DNA of 64,000 nt, from NCBI RefSeq assembly GCF_001020565.1, contig NZ_LDAS01000001.1, positions 224,402 through 288,401 of the forward strand, read 5' to 3'. Under the pieces are notes generated by a model, which worked only from the letters and a program-made list of their open reading frames with translations, did not search any database and had not been told where the DNA came from. Shown piece after piece: positions 34,234 to 42,368 of this stretch. Position numbers and translations under genes: made by a program. This DNA comes from Maribacter thermophilus. Lineage in GTDB: Bacteria > Bacteroidota > Bacteroidia > Flavobacteriales > Flavobacteriaceae. Numbering within the stretch: the first letter of the stretch is position 1; each line of letters starts with the position of its first letter.

Positions 34234-35844
34234 ATGAAATTCTGTATGCTTAGGGTGTTTTTGTTTGTCTCGACCATGATATGGGCGCAAGAAGTGCCAA
34301 CAGATTTTTTATCCGCCGAGTTTCATAAAGAGAGAAGACAAGAGGTTAGAAAATTAATGTCCAGTAACAGTGTTCTGGTATTTTTTGCAAATGCGGAAAG
34401 AAATAGAGCCAATGACGTTGATTATGTGTACCACCAAGACCCTAATTTTTACTATTTAACAGGGTATAGAGAACCTAATGCCGTATTGCTTATTTTTTCT
34501 GAGCCACAGAAAGATGCTCAAGGAAACGAGTTTGATGAGTTGATTTATGTGCAAGAAAGGAATGCTAAAGAAGAACAGTGGACCGGTAAACGCTTAGGAG
34601 TTGAAGGTGTTGTTGATAAACTAGGGTTTAAAATGGCCTATAATGGCAGTGAGTTCAAAAAGGTACCTGTAGACTTTACTTCTTTTGATAAGGTGTCTTT
34701 TTTTGATTTTGAAAATGATTATCGCGATAAACAAGGTGATGCCGACCTTTTCGATTTAATACAAACATTTAAGGTAAAAGCTAATTATCCGTCGGATTAT
34801 AATCCCCAAAAGCAACAGTTGTACTCTATGATCCAGGCTACGGAAATTGAGAATAGTGCCAATGTTGCCCAAACAGTTGGTAGGTATTTAGATTACTATG
34901 AAGATTTAAGGAACGAAGAATTTCTTTATGAATTTGTTAATGCGCCCAACAACGAGAAAAGATTGGAAATAAAACAAAAGGTTTCGTTGGAGTTAGAGGC
35001 CAATAATCTTGATTCTAGTATGATTTCGGAAATTATGAGTACGTTGAGAGAAACTAAGACCGCCGAAGAGATGAAGTTGTTGAAAAAGGCGATAGAAATT
35101 TCATCGGTAGGGCAGATTGAAGTTATGAAAGCGATGCATCCGAATATGTCGGAAACTGAGATTCAAGGAGTTCATGAGTATGTTTATAAAAAGTATGGGG
35201 CAGAATATGAAGGGTACCCCTCTATCGTGGGTGGTGGAAATAATGGTTGTATTTTACACTATATCGAGAACAATAAGGCCAAAGTAGGTAACGATCTTGT
35301 TTTAATGGACCTTGGAGCGGAATATCACGGTTATACTGCGGACGTAACCCGTACAATTCCCGCAAATGGAAAATTCACGGCAGAGCAAAAGGCCATCTAT
35401 GATATTGTGTATGAAGCGCAGGAAGCCGGTATTAAGGCCAGTGTGGTAGGGGCACCTTTTCAGGCTCCTGGCAAGGCGGCGGCAGAGGTAGTGGCCAATG
35501 GTCTGTTGAGACTGGGGATTATTAAGGAAGCAAAAGAGGCCAGAACTTATTTTCCCCACGGCACCTCGCATTATTTGGGATTGGATGTTCATGATCAAGG
35601 CACCTATGCACCCTTTAAGAGCAATACGGTAATAACCGTAGAACCCGGTATCTATATTCCAGAAGGTAGTAATTGCGATAAAAAATGGTGGGGTATTGCC
35701 GTGCGTATAGAGGACGATATCCTTATTACAGATGACGGTCCTGTAAATTTATCGGCAATGGCGCCAAGAACTACAGAGGCCATTGAGACAATGATGAAAC
35801 AGCTCAGTCCTTTGGATGATTTTGTACTACCTAAGCTAGATTAA
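34234..35844 (+). CDS. Exported Xaa-Pro aminopeptidase (M24)
   Basis: A 536-residue peptidase with a signal peptide (MKFCMLRVFLFVSTMIWAQ). An aminopeptidase-P N-terminal domain ('SVLVFFANAERNRANDVDYVYHQDPNFYYLTGY') precedes the pita-bread domain. Metal ligands are Asp in 'LMDLGAEYHGYTADVTRT', His in 'YFPHGTSHYLGLDVHD', and Glu in 'TVEPGIYIP' and 'VRIEDDIL'. It removes N-terminal residues before proline, here in the periplasm. Its stop overlaps the thrC stop on the other strand by four bases. Confidence 0.93.
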   Translation: MKFCMLRVFLFVSTMIWAQEVPTDFLSAEFHKERRQEVRKLMSSNSVLVFFANAERNRANDVDYVYHQDPNFYYLTGYREPNAVLLIFSEPQKDAQGNEFDELIYVQERNAKEEQWTGKRLGVEGVVDKLGFKMAYNGSEFKKVPVDFTSFDKVSFFDFENDYRDKQGDADLFDLIQTFKVKANYPSDYNPQKQQLYSMIQATEIENSANVAQTVGRYLDYYEDLRNEEFLYEFVNAPNNEKRLEIKQKVSLELEANNLDSSMISEIMSTLRETKTAEEMKLLKKAIEISSVGQIEVMKAMHPNMSETEIQGVHEYVYKKYGAEYEGYPSIVGGGNNGCILHYIENNKAKVGNDLVLMDLGAEYHGYTADVTRTIPANGKFTAEQKAIYDIVYEAQEAGIKASVVGAPFQAPGKAAAEVVANGLLRLGIIKEAKEARTYFPHGTSHYLGLDVHDQGTYAPFKSNTVITVEPGIYIPEGSNCDKKWWGIAVRIEDDILITDDGPVNLSAMAPRTTEAIETMMKQLSPLDDFVLPKLD

Positions 35845-37136
35845 CGGTTTAGTAAAAAAGTCTTTAGGTCCGAATAGGTCTTTATGTTAACGGATTTTTT
35901 GTCCTTGTCCATAACTTTTTTTATCTGTGGTGGTATTGGCAATTGTTCATCTATTGTTTCTTCTACAATATCAAGAAATTTAACCGGATGGGCGGTTTCT
36001 AAAAATATGCCATAGGTGTTCGGGTGATCGGCTTGATACTTTTTTAACCCTAAATAACCTACGGCACCATGGGGGTCTGCACAATATCCGTTAGAACTAT
36101 ATATCTGTAGTATGGCATCTTTGGTTTCTTTGTCGTTAAACGAGAAAGAAGAAAGATTTGATTTTAGTTTGTTGAAATCATCATCGAACAGGTGTCTGAT
36201 TCTAATAAAGTTACTAGGGTCTCCCACATCCATAGCGTTTGAAATGGTCGCAGTGGAAGGTTTGGGATTGTACTGTTGTGTTGTCATGTACTCTGGTACA
36301 GTATCATTAACATTGGTAGCGGCAATAAAATGTTTTACGGGCATACCCAATCTTTGGGCTACCATTCCTGCACATATATTGCCGAAATTGCCAGAAGGAA
36401 CCGAGAATACGATTTCTTTTCCTTTGGTTTTTGCCTGTTTGTAAGCAAAAAGAAAATAGAACATTTGCGGTAGCCAACGGGCTACATTAATGGAATTTGC
36501 CGACGTCAGCTTCATTTTTTTCAACAGATCATCATCCAAAAAAGCATTTTTTACCATGGCTTGGCAATCGTCGAAAGTACCATCTACCTCCAAGGCGGTA
36601 ATATTTTGTCCTAAAGTGGTCAGTTGCCTTTCTTGTATATCACTTACTTTACCACTTGGGTAGAGTATTACGACTTTTACACCGTTAACCCCTAAAAACC
36701 CATTGGCGACAGCACCACCGGTATCTCCAGAAGTGGCAACTAGAACGGTGACTTCGCTGTTTTCGTCCTTAGAAAAATAACCAAGGCATTGAGCCATAAA
36801 GCGTGCTCCGACATCTTTGAACGCCATTGTAGGACCATGAAATAACTCTAGTGTAGCAACATTTTCCTCGATATCTACTACGGGGAAATCAAAGTCTAGT
36901 GTATTGGCCAGTATTTTTCGTAAGGTATCATTGGGTATTTCATCGCTTACAAATTGATGAATAGCATTAAAGGCTATTTCGTAATTTGATAAATCTTCTA
37001 TTTTTTCAAAAAAGCTTTTAGGCAGCGGTTCTATCCTTTCTGGAAAATATAACCCTTTGTCCGGAGCTATACCGTTGATAACCGCGTTTTTGAAAGAGAC
37101 GGAGGGAGCTTGTTTGTTTAGGCTATAGAAATTCAA
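35841..37136 (-). CDS. thrC: Threonine synthase
   Basis: A 431-residue PLP enzyme converting O-phosphohomoserine to threonine. The PLP Lys is in 'GPTMAFKDVGARFMAQ' (about residue 107), the Ser/Thr phosphate loop is 'VATSGDTGGAV', and 'SVPSGNFGNICAG' and 'ANSINVARWLPQ' are further landmarks. Third gene of thrABC, 47 bp after thrB. No terminator is visible at the overlapping 3' end with the M24 gene. Confidence 0.96.
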   Translation of the reverse strand: MNFYSLNKQAPSVSFKNAVINGIAPDKGLYFPERIEPLPKSFFEKIEDLSNYEIAFNAIHQFVSDEIPNDTLRKILANTLDFDFPVVDIEENVATLELFHGPTMAFKDVGARFMAQCLGYFSKDENSEVTVLVATSGDTGGAVANGFLGVNGVKVVILYPSGKVSDIQERQLTTLGQNITALEVDGTFDDCQAMVKNAFLDDDLLKKMKLTSANSINVARWLPQMFYFLFAYKQAKTKGKEIVFSVPSGNFGNICAGMVAQRLGMPVKHFIAATNVNDTVPEYMTTQQYNPKPSTATISNAMDVGDPSNFIRIRHLFDDDFNKLKSNLSSFSFNDKETKDAILQIYSSNGYCADPHGAVGYLGLKKYQADHPNTYGIFLETAHPVKFLDIVEETIDEQLPIPPQIKKVMDKDKKSVNIKTYSDLKTFLLNR

Positions 37137-37183: not shown

Positions 37184-38104
37184 TTAAAGTATTTTGATTC
37201 CCTGTTGGTTAATTTTGGAAACATGTATGTCGTAATCTATTCCAATTGTTTCGTAGACCCGTTTCATTTCGTTTCCAATATTGATAGCTGTTTTTTCACC
37301 TTTGCTGAATGCAAAAATAGAAGGTCCCGACCCTGAAATTCCGCAACCCAATGCACCTGCATTGATAGAAGCCTGTTTTACTTGGTCAAAACCTGGAATT
37401 AGAATGGAGCGGATAGGTTCTACAATATGGTCCACTAGAGAACGGCCTATCAATTCGTAATCTTCCTTTAAGAGTCCGGCAACAAGACCTCCTACATTAC
37501 CCCATTGTTTAATGGCGGTTTCCATAGAAATGGTAGTTCTGAGTATTTTTCTAGAGTCAGATGTTTTTACCTCTATTTGCGGATGTATCACCGTAGCATA
37601 CAATTCTTGGGGAGCGGTTATGGGCACAATGTCAAGAGGGGTATAACTTCTTATCAAGGTAAAGTTGCCAAATAGGGCAGGGGCCACGTTATCTGCATGG
37701 GCAACTTCGCTGGCCAGTCTTTCACCTTCCATGGCAAACGTAACAAGCTTTGTCGGTGTAAAGGGGCTTCCTAATAAATGGTTCATGGCCCATACGGCGC
37801 CGGCCGAACTTGCTGCACTACTACCGATACCACTTCCGGGCTTTATTTTCTTATTGATTTCGATTTCAAAACCACCCTCATACTCAGAAGCGTCTAAAAA
37901 TGCAAGTCCGGCTACGCCGGCAACATTTTTTTCTGCTTGCATTGGCAGGTCCTGTCCTTCGATTTTGGTAATTCTTATTCCTTTTTCTTTTGTTTTTCGA
38001 ACCACCATTTCATCTCCGACCGCATCTAGGGCAACACCAAGAACATCAAAGCCACATGAGATATTGGCTATAGTTGCGGGGCAAAATACTTTAACTTCGT
38101 TCAT
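37184..38104 (-). CDS. thrB: Homoserine kinase
   Basis: A 306-residue GHMP kinase phosphorylating homoserine. The ATP loop is KPGSGIGSSAASSAGAV (about 87-103), the N-terminal 'VFCPATIANISCGFDVLG' and the C-terminal 'GALGCGISGSGPSIFAF' are GHMP motifs. It starts 2 bp after the thrA stop. Confidence 0.96.
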   Translation of the reverse strand: MNEVKVFCPATIANISCGFDVLGVALDAVGDEMVVRKTKEKGIRITKIEGQDLPMQAEKNVAGVAGLAFLDASEYEGGFEIEINKKIKPGSGIGSSAASSAGAVWAMNHLLGSPFTPTKLVTFAMEGERLASEVAHADNVAPALFGNFTLIRSYTPLDIVPITAPQELYATVIHPQIEVKTSDSRKILRTTISMETAIKQWGNVGGLVAGLLKEDYELIGRSLVDHIVEPIRSILIPGFDQVKQASINAGALGCGISGSGPSIFAFSKGEKTAINIGNEMKRVYETIGIDYDIHVSKINQQGIKIL

Positions 38105-38106
38105 AA

Positions 38107-40548
38107 CTAAAAATTACCAATTCTAATAATGTCGGCAAAAATTCCGGATGCGGTAACATCGGCTCCAGCTCCGGCACCCTTAATAATCATTGGTAGGTTA
38201 GGGTATCTTTCTGTATAAAACAAAACAATATTGTCGCTTTCCTCCAGATTGTAGAAATCATGGCCCTTTGGAATTTGTTCAAGGCCAACACTGGCCTCTC
38301 CATTCTCAAATTTCGCCACATATTTTAACTTGCTATTTTTTTTCTTGGCATCGCCGAACATTTTTTGAAAGTCGTCCTCATATTTTGTCAATGACTTGAA
38401 AAAATCTTCATTGTTCGTTGTTTCCAAACTCTCTTTGGGTAAAAAAGGTTTGTTTTTTATGTCTTCTATTTCTAGAATATGACCACTTTCCCTGGCCAGA
38501 ATCAAAATCTTTCTCATTACATCGATACCGCTAAGATCTATTTTAGGGTCGGGCTCGGTATATCCTTCTTCTTGTGCTTTTTTTACAATATCGTGAAAAG
38601 TAGTGGTGTCATTAAAATTGTTGAAAACAAAGTTTAAGCTTCCTGACAGTACCGCTTGTATCTTTAATATTTTATCGCCTGATGCGATAAGGTTTTTAAG
38701 AGTATCTATTATGGGCAGACCGGCACCAACGTTGGTTTCAAATAGAAAAGGGGCATTGTATGTACGTGCCAAAGATTTCAGGTGGGCGTAATTGCCATAT
38801 TCCGAAGAACATGCTATTTTGTTGCAGGTAACCACAGAAATGCTGTTACTTAAAAAAGAGCTGTATGTTTCTGCTATTTCATGACTGGCGGTATTGTCAA
38901 CGAATATACTGTTTCGATAATTCATTTCGTTCACCTTTTTGATGAAAGAGGCTTTGTCCGCCTTTTCACCTGTAGCCAATTGATCGCTCCATGAATTAAG
39001 GTCTATTCCCTTTTCATCAAAATACATGTTGCGCGAATTCGATATACCGATGACGCGTAGTTTCAGCTTTAAGTTTTTCTTTAAGTATTTATCCTGTAAC
39101 TTAATTTGGTTCAGGAATTTAGCTCCAACGTTTCCGACCCCCATTACAAAGAGGTTCAGTTGTTTTATGTTCTCTTCAAAGAATTCTTCGTGCAGGGCGT
39201 TCAACGCTTTTTTTACATCTTTTTCGTTGATTACGCACGATATATTTCTCTCTGATGCTCCTTGGGCTATTACTCTGATATTAACATTGTTTTTGCCCAA
39301 TGTGCTGAACATTTTGCCACTAAGTCCTTGATGGCTCTTCATGTTATCACCTACCAGTGCTACGATTGCAAGGTTTTCTTCAGGGTGTACGGGTTTTATT
39401 CTACCGCGTTCCATTTCGTAAGCAAAAGCCTCGTTCACTACCTCTACCGATTTTTCAACATCATCGGCAGAAATACCTACACAAATGGAGTGTTCCGAAG
39501 AAGCTTGGGTAATAAGTACCACACTAATATCTGCTTGCGAAAGTACTTCAAAAAACCTTTTGGAAATACCAGGAATACCGACCATGCCCGGACCTTCTAA
39601 AGAAAGTAGGGCCATATTTCCGATATGGCTTATACCTCTGACCGTTTTTCCTTTTTCATTTTTTGATTTTGTTATCAAAGTACCTGGTTCTTCGGGCTGA
39701 AAGGTGTTTTTGATGTTGATGGATATGCCTTTTGCCAATACAGGTTGAATGGTGGGGGGATATAGAACCTTGGCACCAAAATGGGACAGTTCCATAGCCT
39801 CTTCGTATGAAATATGGGGTATTGCCTTTGCTTGCTTTACCATTTTGGGGTTTGCAGTGTACATACCACTTACATCTGTCCATATTTCTAAAATATCCGC
39901 ATCTACTGCGGCGGCATATATGGCCGCCGTATAATCCGATCCTCCTCTGCCCAATGTAGTAATGTCTCCATTTGCCGACGAAGCAATAAAGCCGGGGCAA
40001 ACTATGATTTTGGCCTTGGCAGGTTTAAAATATGAAGAACAATTACTGTTCGTCTGTTTGAAATCAACAGTATTTTTTCCGCCGATTTTATGTGTTTTTA
40101 TAAGTTCTCTACTGTCCTTGTAAGAACAGTCCAAACCTTGGGAAATAAAGAACTCACTAATTATATATGAAGAAAGCAGCTCTCCGAAACTTACGATTTT
40201 ATCGGATAGTTTGGGGGTTATTTCACCTATAAAAAAAGCGCCTTCCAAAAGTGTTTCCAACACGTTCAGTTCACTCTTTACTTTGCTCAAGACCTTACTT
40301 TGGTTGGTGATAGGAATGAGTTTCTTGATGGTATCTAGGTGACGGGTCTCAATTTCTTGAAATGTATCTTTGTAAGAATCGTCCTGACCGGCGGCCAAGC
40401 TCCCGGCTTTGAGTAATTGGTCCGTTACCCCACCAAAGGCAGAAACTACAAGTATTATCTTGTCATTATAGGACGATAATATATTTTTTATTTTGCTAAT
40501 ATTTTCTGGACTGGCCACTGAGGAGCCACCGAATTTTAAAACTTTCAT
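38107..40548 (-). CDS. thrA: Bifunctional aspartokinase / homoserine dehydrogenase
   Basis: An 813-residue fusion that carries the first and third steps of threonine synthesis. The kinase part starts MKVLKFGGSSVASPENI and has 'TTLGRGGSDYTAAIYAA' (about 200-216); two ACT domains sit at about 300-450 ('VRGISHIGNMALLSLEG', 'NLAIVALVGDNM'). The dehydrogenase follows with 'FVMGVGNVGAKFL' and 'GSLNFVFNNFND', 'EGYTEPDPKIDLSGIDVMRK'. ACT domains imply threonine feedback. Upstream is a candidate Thr/Ile leader peptide. Confidence 0.96.
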   Translation of the reverse strand: MKVLKFGGSSVASPENISKIKNILSSYNDKIILVVSAFGGVTDQLLKAGSLAAGQDDSYKDTFQEIETRHLDTIKKLIPITNQSKVLSKVKSELNVLETLLEGAFFIGEITPKLSDKIVSFGELLSSYIISEFFISQGLDCSYKDSRELIKTHKIGGKNTVDFKQTNSNCSSYFKPAKAKIIVCPGFIASSANGDITTLGRGGSDYTAAIYAAAVDADILEIWTDVSGMYTANPKMVKQAKAIPHISYEEAMELSHFGAKVLYPPTIQPVLAKGISINIKNTFQPEEPGTLITKSKNEKGKTVRGISHIGNMALLSLEGPGMVGIPGISKRFFEVLSQADISVVLITQASSEHSICVGISADDVEKSVEVVNEAFAYEMERGRIKPVHPEENLAIVALVGDNMKSHQGLSGKMFSTLGKNNVNIRVIAQGASERNISCVINEKDVKKALNALHEEFFEENIKQLNLFVMGVGNVGAKFLNQIKLQDKYLKKNLKLKLRVIGISNSRNMYFDEKGIDLNSWSDQLATGEKADKASFIKKVNEMNYRNSIFVDNTASHEIAETYSSFLSNSISVVTCNKIACSSEYGNYAHLKSLARTYNAPFLFETNVGAGLPIIDTLKNLIASGDKILKIQAVLSGSLNFVFNNFNDTTTFHDIVKKAQEEGYTEPDPKIDLSGIDVMRKILILARESGHILEIEDIKNKPFLPKESLETTNNEDFFKSLTKYEDDFQKMFGDAKKKNSKLKYVAKFENGEASVGLEQIPKGHDFYNLEESDNIVLFYTERYPNLPMIIKGAGAGADVTASGIFADIIRIGNF

Positions 40549-40623
40549 TCTAATGTTGTTGTATGTTGTCTTATCGAGAAATATGTTGTGTTAACGAACA
40601 CGGGGACGGAGGTGCATAGTCTA

Positions 40624-40716
40624 TTACCCCATTGGGGTGAACAATACCGTAATAGTAGGTAAACAATTACTTGTGGTATCGATTACGAATTTTATGTCAG
40701 TACTAATACAGTTCAT
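40624..40716 (-). CDS. Candidate threonine-operon leader peptide
   Basis: A 30-codon frame (ATG at 40716, tandem stops TAA TAG) that reads MNCISTDIKFVIDTTSNCLP then TITVLFTPMG. Six Thr and four Ile codons make a third of it, the amino acids whose supply controls thrABC. It lies between a strong promoter and thrA, and just past its control codons the RNA can form ACCCC-AAT-GGGGT or, alternatively, GGGG with a CCCC about 20 nt downstream. This is how attenuator leaders look. No good terminator T run is visible, so control may be at thrA translation. Not a known annotated family; call is inference. Confidence 0.6.
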   Translation of the reverse strand: MNCISTDIKFVIDTTSNCLPTITVLFTPMG

Positions 40717-40733
40717 AATAAAATGATGATGGT

Positions 40734-40764
40734 CAAAAGTAGTACATTTGAGGTGCTAATCAAA
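40734..40764 (-). promoter_or_regulatory. Strong Bacteroidota promoter for thr leader and thrABC
   Basis: On the reverse strand TTTG (40764-40761), exactly 19 bp, then TACTTTTG (40741-40734): a perfect -33/-7 pair. Transcription would begin about 10-12 nt before the leader ATG at 40716. Confidence 0.75.
40743..40750 (+). promoter_or_regulatory. Candidate -7 element for nnr, overlapping the thr promoter
   Basis: TACATTTG fits TAnnTTTG, 67 bp before the nnr ATG. It lies within the spacer of the opposing thr promoter, so the two would compete. No convincing -33 partner. Confidence 0.33.
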
Positions 40765-40817
40765 TGATTATACAAATTTTTATAGAATCGTTACTTTTTA
40801 ATACAATTACATAGAAA

Positions 40818-42368
40818 ATGAAACTTTTTAGTGCCGAACAAATTTATGCCGCTGATAAATTCACAATTGAGAAGCAGCAAATTACGAGTGATGAACTTAT
40901 GGAGAGGGCTGCGGTTCAAATTTTTAATTGGTTGCATATACGCATGCAGGGGGCTCCGGTAAAGATCCATATACTTTGTGGTATAGGAAACAATGGGGGT
41001 GACGGCATGGCACTTGCCAGGCACTTGATGGAGCATGGTTACAATATACAGGTCTATGTGGTTAATTATAGCGAAAAGCGCTCAAAAGACTTTCTAATAA
41101 ACCTTGACCGGTTAAAAGATAGAAAAATATGGCCTACTTTTTTAGAGGCCGCAAGTGATTTGCCCACTATAGACAAAGATGATATCATCGTAGATGCTAT
41201 TTTTGGTATCGGATTGAATAGAACGCCTGATAATTGGGTTGTTAAGTTAGTGGAACACTTAAATTCTTCAAGAGCGTTCATTCTTTCGGTAGATATACCT
41301 TCTGGGCTTTTTACACATAAAGTTCCGGAAAATGAAAAGTCGGTAATACAGTCTAATTACGTTTTAAGTTTCCAATTTCCAAAACTGGTATTTTTTCTAC
41401 CTCAAACAGGAATATTTATTGAGCAATGGGAAGTGTTGGATATAGGACTCGACAATGAGTTTTTAATGCAAACGGAAACTGAGTACGAGCTTATTTCAAA
41501 GAATGAGGTTTTGCCACTTTATCATCCAAGAACTAAATTTTCGCACAAAGGAACTTATGGACATGCTTTATTGGTCGGGGGTAGTTATGGAAAGGTCGGA
41601 GCTGTAAACATGGCCGGTAGGGCAGCCCTGAAATCGGGAAGCGGGCTGGTTACCTGTTTGTTGCCAAAGTGTGGCTATGACATTTTGCAGACTTCTTTGC
41701 CAGAGGCAATGGTATTAACAAGTGGTGAATCTTCTCTTTTAAAAATTGAGTACGATATTTCGCCAAACGTAATTGGTATAGGCATGGGTATGGGCTTGGC
41801 CGATAGTACAACACAGGCATTTGGAGACTTTCTAAAGAAAAATCAGTTGCCATTGGTAATCGATGCAGATGCCTTGAACATAATTTCTGAAAATAAGGAG
41901 TTAATGGAATTGCTACCCAAACAAGCTGTGCTAACTCCCCACCCTAAAGAATTGGAAAGGCTTATAGGGAAATGGGAAGACGACTTTGATAAGCTGAAAA
42001 AGACAAAGGAGTTTTCAAAAAAGTATGATTGTATTGTAGTTATAAAAGGGGCGCATACCATTACCGTTTATGGCGATAGGGGATATGTGAATACAACAGG
42101 TAACCCGGGTATGGGTACGGCCGGCAGTGGCGATGTGCTTACCGGGGTAATTACAGGATTGATGGCGCAAGGATATAATCCGTTGGACGCTGCTGTTTTT
42201 GGTGTTTATCTTCATGGTAGGTCTGCCGACCTGACAGTAGAAAGAACAGGATACCAAGCATTGTTGGCCTCCGATATAATAGAAGGCCTGGGAAATGCTT
42301 ATCTAGATCTTTTTAAGGTTCCCGAACAAGTGCAACAAGAACCCGAAGATAATGCAGGCAATAAGTAA
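40818..42368 (+). CDS. nnr: Bifunctional NAD(P)H-hydrate epimerase / dehydratase
   Basis: A 516-residue repair enzyme. The N-terminal YjeF_N domain (about 1-215) shows 'LMERAAVQIFNW', 'GIGNNGGDGMALARHL' and 'VDAIFGIGLNR'; the C-terminal ribokinase-like dehydratase has 'GHALLVGGSYGKVGAVNMAG', 'PLVIDADALNII', 'LTPHPKELERL', and 'GNPGMGTAGSGDVLTGVI'. It restores damaged NADHX/NADPHX. Convergent with the next gene. Confidence 0.95.
   Translation: MKLFSAEQIYAADKFTIEKQQITSDELMERAAVQIFNWLHIRMQGAPVKIHILCGIGNNGGDGMALARHLMEHGYNIQVYVVNYSEKRSKDFLINLDRLKDRKIWPTFLEAASDLPTIDKDDIIVDAIFGIGLNRTPDNWVVKLVEHLNSSRAFILSVDIPSGLFTHKVPENEKSVIQSNYVLSFQFPKLVFFLPQTGIFIEQWEVLDIGLDNEFLMQTETEYELISKNEVLPLYHPRTKFSHKGTYGHALLVGGSYGKVGAVNMAGRAALKSGSGLVTCLLPKCGYDILQTSLPEAMVLTSGESSLLKIEYDISPNVIGIGMGMGLADSTTQAFGDFLKKNQLPLVIDADALNIISENKELMELLPKQAVLTPHPKELERLIGKWEDDFDKLKKTKEFSKKYDCIVVIKGAHTITVYGDRGYVNTTGNPGMGTAGSGDVLTGVITGLMAQGYNPLDAAVFGVYLHGRSADLTVERTGYQALLASDIIEGLGNAYLDLFKVPEQVQQEPEDNAGNK

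Follow-up and report, generated by a model that had tools for sequence, protein, structure and literature searches.

Organization of the thrABC locus

The window analysed here is a stretch of 64,000 nucleotides from the genome of Maribacter thermophilus, and on its minus strand it carries thrA, thrB and thrC, assigned from their Pfam domains (Table 1). Among named organisms, the ThrA matches near that of the window come from Maribacter (72-79% identity) and Arenibacter (76%). The divergent neighbour on the plus strand (40818-42368) encodes a bifunctional NAD(P)H-hydrate repair enzyme with YjeF_N and Carb_kinase domains, and shares one intergenic region with thrA. Within this region, a minus-strand frame of 30 codons followed by TAA encodes MNCISTDIKFVIDTTSNCLPTITVLFTPMG, which includes 6 Thr and 4 Ile residues. 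The frame begins 17 nt past a promoter of the Bacteroidota type and ends 75 nt short of thrA, an arrangement that bears out the original prediction of a Thr- and Ile-rich frame between a promoter and thrA.

Promoters in Bacteroidota follow the consensus TAnnTTTG / TTG. In the window, the two promoter elements were read by eye and are separated by a 19-nt spacer. The TAnnTTTG box is present in all 34 members of the genus (34/34), with a TTG 17-23 nt 5' of the box in 31 of the 34; in three members (L010, L014 and L027) the script chose a later box when measuring the TTG spacing. In the wider family, 67 of the 87 loci scanned have the box and 26 have a TTG at this spacing. A scan for sigma-70-type promoters, whose scope does not extend to the Bacteroidota type, returned two plus-strand sites and no others, compared with 2.6 in shuffled sequences. 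Additionally, an inverted repeat, CATTTGA-N8-TCAAATG, extends over the -33 box (40745-40766, minus strand) and may be an operator palindrome. An inverted repeat of at least 6 is found at the promoter in 24 of 34 genus members, but in only 23 of 87 family loci.

Considered by itself, the window frame has a probability of 0.004 of containing at least 6 Thr among 30 residues, and of 0.17 of containing at least 4 Ile, while the surrounding 201 nt fold about as stably as the average shuffled copy (z 0.11). A value of 0.004 for a single frame is weak evidence alone, and it is the comparison with relatives that settles whether the leader is real.

Table 1. Features of the thrABC locus, in window coordinates.
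Feature	Coordinates	Strand	Basis or remark
-33 element, TTTG	40761..40764	minus	read by eye; genus comparison
-7 element, TACTTTTG	40734..40741	minus	19-nt spacer to -33; read by eye
Thr-rich leader peptide frame, 30 codons and TAA	40624..40716	minus	frame, recurrence, composition, substitution ratio
Thr codon 27 (ACC), whose three bases open the hairpin-1 stem	40636..40638	minus	ACC in 26/28 distinct genus frames
Hairpin 1, ACCCC-AAU-GGGGU	40626..40638	minus	last Thr codon to first base of stop codon
C-rich, G-poor stretch from leader stop to thrA; proposed Rho entry region	40549..40623	minus	composition; inference
Position of (C/U)AUAU ... UCCGU	40606..40619	minus	window reads CUAUGCACCUCCGU: UCCGU present, AUAU absent
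Hairpin 2, GUGUU-CGUU-AACAC	40588..40601	minus	no U-tract after; equivalent covaries in clade
thrA, aspartate kinase-homoserine dehydrogenase	38107..40548	minus	Pfam domains
thrB, homoserine kinase (GHMP kinase domains)	37184..38104	minus	Pfam domains
thrC, threonine synthase	35841..37136	minus	Pfam domains

Recurrence of the leader among relatives

The regions upstream of thrA were screened with an automatic rule, which accepts an ATG frame of 9-65 codons with at least 2 Thr in its last 14 and a stem near the stop, formed either by an in-frame ACC codon that opens a CCC...GGG stem or by ACGGG...CCCG. Three sets of genomes were compared. For the genus, 36 genomes were searched and two (G008 and G020) dropped, as they gave weak paralog matches only; leader and hairpin are found in 33 of the remaining 34, against 0 in shuffles. 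The family set comprises the 89 of 120 genomes, from 88 genera, with a ThrA match at E 1e-150, and the leader and hairpin are found in 65 of these against 0.2 in dinucleotide shuffles. Outside the family, 33 of 159 genomes in a class sample have a ThrA match at E 1e-110, and only those, minus G130, were looked at. Together, 28 class-sample matches and four from the search behind the genus set give 32 other-family loci, of which 12 carry leader and hairpin (shuffles 0), nine with CCC...GGG and three with the reversed stem. These belong to eight families (f2, f5, f27, f28, f30, f47, f50 and f71). The recurrence outside the family is stated for genomes with a close ThrA, 33 of the 159 in the class sample.

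A set of named loci was drawn partly from the same genomes as the other sets: 80 were fetched, two lacked a candidate frame, and 49 of the other 78 have leader and hairpin. They include loci from Maribacter, Arenibacter, Flagellimonas, Flavobacterium, Kordia, Aquimarina, Polaribacter and Lutibacter, and further from Chryseobacterium, Hymenobacter, Chitinophagaceae and a contig labelled Balneolaceae. When the stem rule is omitted and Thr content alone is tested, 20 of 34 genus, 46 of 89 family and 14 of 32 other-family loci are positive, against 0.45-0.6 in shuffles, and the same test on the opposite strand gives 0 in all three sets. Thus the promoter-proximal, Thr-rich short frame upstream of thrA is kept both in and outside the family, as the original prediction required of a leader that is no coincidence, and the leader recurs in at least nine bacterial families.

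The automatic rule finds no leader in 24 of the 89 family loci. Two of these (L148 and L151) have leaders of a terminator type, discussed below, and some others show a stem by eye (L117 and L157). By eye, two thrA paralogs (L002 and L003) have no leader. In one relative (G009, C1:2312394-2314832), thrA contains eight in-frame stops, five TGA and three TAA.

Conservation of the frame and its hairpins

Across 65 leaders, Thr makes up 26.1% of the last 20 residues, compared with 5.3% in the proteins of the window, and Ile 12.9%, compared with 7.3%. Of the two amino acids originally proposed as the leader signal, Thr is the clear one, while Ile shows a mild enrichment. Of the 28 distinct genus frames, 26 have ACC at codon 27 and 23 have a Thr codon at position 23, and in two members (L006 and L010) the frame is kept even with the start codon elsewhere. 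The ratio of nonsynonymous to synonymous changes in close genus pairs, which are not independent of one another, is 1.70 against 3.28 expected, indicating purifying selection on the leader frame.

Hairpin 1 most commonly takes the form ACCCC/GGGGT, and its flanks vary together, as in TACCCC/GGGGTA and CAACCC/GGGTTG. In distant relatives, other stems are found in its place, namely ACGGG/CCCGT, ACCCTC/GAGGGT and ACAATCCGC/GCGGATTGT. Downstream of hairpin 1, two short elements recur in the set of 70 leaders that was used for the tests of structure, terminators and composition; this set derives from 95 leaders, less 25 that fail the hairpin and score rule, and includes six of the window's genus. 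CATAT or TATAT follows hairpin 1 in 51 of the 70, against a shuffle mean of 21.9, and TCCGT in 27, against 4.9, with (C/U)AUAU lying about 9 nt and UCCGU about 19 nt past the hairpin. By eye, CATAT also recurs before the terminators of many his leaders.

Structure was compared most closely in a Flavobacterium-like clade of 16 sequences, for which the structure tested was predicted from the same alignment that was scored. In this clade, three hairpins (one internal to the leader, hairpin 1 and hairpin 2) pair in 97.4% of cells, and the covariation score was reached by 0 of 500 shuffles. Changes on both sides are seen in 8 of 19 pairs, all in the leader-internal hairpin and hairpin 2; hairpin 1 hardly varies among the 16 sequences and has 0 double-sided changes. 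The leader-internal hairpin (alignment A2, L098-L131, L299 and L301) lies upstream of the Thr run, and each of its six pairs shows a two-sided change in one or more sequences.

Terminators and alternative pairings

In the window, there is no intrinsic terminator, that is, no GC hairpin with a U-tract, between the leader and thrA. The thr leaders as a group are similar. From hairpin 1 to thrA (98 nt on average), a scan limited to loops of 3-10 found an ordinary U-tract terminator in 1 of 70 (L072), compared with 0.85 in shuffles. Other amino acid operons of the family differ sharply from this, with a U-tract terminator upstream of his in 30/30 loci, trp in 29/30, phe in 26/27 and ilv in 20/28. 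These loci are the best 30 matches of 41 genomes for each operon, from which a frame check removed three phe and two ilv, and they were scanned over 330 nt for his, trp and phe and 600 nt for ilv. The his, trp, phe and ilv operon leaders of the window's own genome, MRNRTIHHHFHTHAQAR, MKTMKNTWWWNNLRQHS, MSKQYFWNGFYFYFFFKRGTGLL and MNLNEILINVVIIIPERE, respectively, have the textbook form. At these loci (L173 at hisG, L193 at pheA/PDT, L232 at ilvD and L269 at trpE), intrinsic terminators accompany leader peptides whose codon runs are for His, Phe, branched-chain amino acids and Trp, respectively.

Certain thr leaders do carry a terminator. Among seven hand-picked Thr-rich leaders of the terminator type, six have a U-tract terminator, two in the family (L148 and L151) and four in family f55 (L065-L068), with L062 negative. 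The same sensor can accordingly occur with or without a terminator behind it, which makes the sensor the constant part.

A terminator with a longer loop was also considered, in which the 3' arm of hairpin 1 pairs with the bases before a T-run. With any loop length allowed, this pairing exceeds 95% of shuffles in 11 of 70 leaders, where 3.5 are expected, and averages -2.93 kcal/mol against -2.00 in shuffles. The strongest case is L038 (-10.2 kcal/mol). The pairing was first noticed by eye in L038, L042 and L043, and weaker examples include L076, L014 and L113, among others. Given this enrichment, some relatives may use a long-loop terminator; the window has no site before a T-run with which the 3' arm could pair.

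Other alternative structures fared less well. An antiterminator formed by the 3' arm of hairpin 1 with the whole downstream stretch does not exceed shuffles in the 65 leaders scored out of 70 (mean z +0.24) and was rejected. Pairing of the leader coding part with the downstream stretch was likewise rejected, since pairing within a leader ranks no differently from pairing between sequences of different species (mean z about -0.08, n=70), though 6 and 5 leaders fall in the best 5%, against 3.5 expected; striking single cases are L076, L078 and L083. In the 16-sequence clade, the real hairpin arms serve as a positive control (p 0.0002), while six of seven alternatives give p 0.16 to 0.74 and one, hairpin 0 with the region 3' of hairpin 2, gives p 0.047. 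Sequestration of the thrA start was also discarded, as its predicted accessibility is 0.521 with the leader free, 0.533 with it covered and 0.507 with it shuffled (65 of 70 leaders). The output of the leader does not look like an ordinary terminator/antiterminator switch. The thrL-type output that the original prediction had invoked is not borne out in its ordinary form, with a terminator in 1 of 70 leaders, no consistent alternative pairing and no Rfam Thr_leader match, and its long-loop form is enriched in a minority and absent in the window.

A C-rich, G-poor stretch behind the leader

The RNA behind the leader stop has an unusual composition. In 30 genus members, C makes up 0.223 and G 0.075 of the first 75 nt; the corresponding fractions are 0.179 and 0.084 in the 70 leaders and 0.162 and 0.152 in 77 upstream regions of the same genome. 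C is at least twice G over these 75 nt in 90% of genus leaders, but in 10% of own-genome upstream regions, among which the C minus G value of the window stands at the 97th percentile (n=77). The stretch is also weakly folded, with a minimum free energy per nt of -0.049 in the genus and -0.071 in the 70 leaders, against -0.120 in the own-genome upstream regions. Over the first 35 nt past the stop, C minus G is higher in thr leaders than in his (n=29), phe (n=21), trp (n=29), ilv (n=20) and terminator-type thr (n=6) leaders, each at p < 0.001. At the family level, C is at least twice G in 61% of leaders over 75 nt and in 39% over 35 nt, the latter compared with 24% of trp leaders.

Rho enters at RNA that is C-rich, G-poor and open, and the genome encodes rho (648.6 bits, over the cut-off). 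Given the C-rich, G-poor RNA after the leader stop, Rho-dependent attenuation is the best guess for the output of the leader.

Proposed mechanism and alternatives

Since the frame, its Thr codons and the hairpin are conserved, threonine sensing can be proposed, and the leader is very probably a sensor of charged tRNA-Thr, read by ribosomes and located in the thrABC 5' leader. Ribosomes would start on the leader frame shortly past the transcription start and would have to decode its Thr codons, the last of which forms part of the hairpin-1 stem at the stop codon. With charged tRNA-Thr plentiful, they would get to the stop and depart, whereas with charged tRNA-Thr scarce, they would linger at the Thr codons. 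Departure would leave naked C-rich, G-poor RNA at and behind the stop, on which Rho could load to halt the polymerase ahead of thrA or soon after it enters the gene; a ribosome held up at the Thr codons would hide part of this RNA, allowing the polymerase to pass.

Rho-dependent attenuation as the output is put forward tentatively, and the Rho step may well prove wrong. Its weakest link is how a ribosome stalled upstream would shield the C-rich stretch, as most of this short stretch lies downstream of a ribosome on the Thr codons. In addition, the bias of C over G could stem from avoidance of structure, and it is weaker at the family level. Furthermore, the sequence conservation of hairpin 1 and of AUAU-UCCGU exceeds what the Rho model needs. 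The long-loop pairing enriched in 11 of 70 leaders and the 24 family loci in which the automatic rule finds no leader also count against the proposal.

In a second explanation, the same threonine sensor would act through a pause- or factor-dependent stop at hairpin 2, not through Rho on the C-rich stretch. Hairpin 2 lies between leader and gene, where his, trp and phe leaders carry their terminator, its equivalent covaries in the 16-sequence clade, and the AUAU/UCCGU element that precedes it might serve for pausing or for binding of a factor. Averaged over 65 of the 70 leaders, the stretch downstream of the leader also has a slightly more stable fold than shuffles (mean z -0.79), but in the window it folds no better than they do (z +0.56), and 69 of the 70 leaders are without an ordinary U-tract after a short-loop hairpin. 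Such a stop is possible, if unlikely.

Alternatively, the same sensor may act on the translation of thrA or on the stability of its mRNA. Outputs of this type are found in the polycysteine leaders of mycobacteria and in ermC, and both the lack of an ordinary terminator and the hairpins between leader and start codon would suit them. The near-equal predicted accessibility of the thrA start with the leader free, covered or shuffled argues against control of translation, on which alone it bears, and the explanation as a whole is rather improbable.

Still more doubtful is an attenuator with a long-loop terminator, in which hairpin 1 or the ribosome would prevent its 3' arm from pairing with the bases before the T-run. 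The enrichment of this pairing in 11 of 70 leaders, its strength in L038, the restriction of the terminator scan to short loops, and the terminator-type thr leaders of the family and of f55 are all in its favor. Against these stand its confinement to a minority of leaders, the lack of such a site in the window, and alternative pairings that neither rise above shuffles over the whole downstream stretch nor covary consistently. Finally, a coincidental frame in a non-coding structured leader, or noise, though compatible with the modest Thr enrichment and shuffle-level folding of the window alone, is hardly credible given that nine families share the leader, its Thr codons aligned with the hairpin, and that shuffles score near 0.

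Read most boldly, the locus may represent a widespread leader peptide by which Bacteroidota control threonine synthesis, with a new expression platform that would combine a Thr codon in a stop hairpin, the conserved (C/U)AUAU-UCCGU element and hairpin 2. Such a platform would dispense with an ordinary terminator, with an antiterminator and with start sequestration, and Rho or some other factor would probably carry out its action. This overall description is itself tentative. What is observed is a recurrent, translated-looking, Thr-rich leader with a hairpin at its stop codon and, in the window, no terminator.

Relation to known leaders

The textbook comparison is with thrL of gammaproteobacteria (RF00506, Thr_leader), whose anatomy consists of a frame, a terminator and an antiterminator. 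Both leaders have a short, promoter-proximal, Thr-rich frame with some Ile before thrABC. Unlike thrL, the window leader is without an ordinary U-tract terminator or a consistent antiterminator, and its hairpin extends from the last Thr codon into the stop. RF00506 does not match the window at the gathering threshold, nor at E up to 10.

The tnaC leader of Escherichia coli is Rho-dependent and shares the logic proposed here, in which the leader ribosome decides whether Rho loads behind the leader stop. However, tnaC responds to free Trp, through arrest of the nascent peptide at the stop codon, and with the opposite sign. Polycysteine short ORFs, for which a leader-peptide mechanism was reportedly described by Canestrari in 2020, resemble the thr leader in having runs of regulatory codons near the stop and no terminator. 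The same likeness holds for the Cys-codon leaders of Actinobacteria, for which one study describes leaders without terminators and suggests Rho-dependent termination, a prediction its authors consider weak because the motifs are not conserved (PMC1262725). Both kinds of Cys leader differ from the thr leader in phylum and in amino acid.

Within Bacteroidota, the Bacteroid-trp element (RF01692) is likewise a leader peptide before an amino acid operon, and it occurs upstream of trpE in the same genome (56.6 bits); it differs in its Trp codons and intrinsic terminator. Among 12 loci compared with Rfam (eight thr and one each of his, phe, ilv and trp), only the trp leader reaches a gathering score, and RF01692 matches none of the eight thr loci. 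This element is listed in a table of an earlier paper (PMC2864571). A study of Flavobacterium psychrophilum transcript maps reports strong clues for leader-peptide attenuation before amino acid operons and names pheA and hisG among conserved 5' elements, while its main text has 0 matches for thrA or threonine (PMC9723704). In the family studied here, leaders of the pheA and hisG type carry terminators, whereas the thr leader is mostly without. In Bacteroides thetaiotaomicron, short frames reminiscent of leader peptides are mentioned in long 5' UTRs (PMC7366714). The original claim of no described counterpart in Bacteroidota was thus too broad, given these reported clues and the match of RF01692 to the trp leader of the same genome.

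A 2004 FEMS survey of attenuators is said to touch on Bacteroidetes/Chlorobi. One paper states that leader peptides had to its authors' knowledge been shown only in Proteobacteria and Actinobacteria (PMC2965389), and another limits its analysis to the four amino acid leaders then in Rfam (PMC3766115). Among the matches listed in the openly accessible literature, no thr leader of Bacteroidota was recognised. Leader peptides are therefore already described in Bacteroidota, and it is the terminator-less thr variant that looks new.

Bacteroidota are a major phylum of guts, soils and seas, in which the regulation of amino acid synthesis is, to our knowledge, poorly charted. Their translation initiation is not known to rely on Shine-Dalgarno sites, and we know of few Rho targets among them. 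With four amino acid operons that have textbook terminators and a thr operon that is mostly without, a single family provides its own internal control, making a direct test possible. Such a test would address how a leader ribosome controls transcription in bacteria that are not known to rely on Shine-Dalgarno sites and whose Rho targets are little charted. Given that there is no ordinary transcription stop signal, how the Thr leader switches its genes becomes a testable question.
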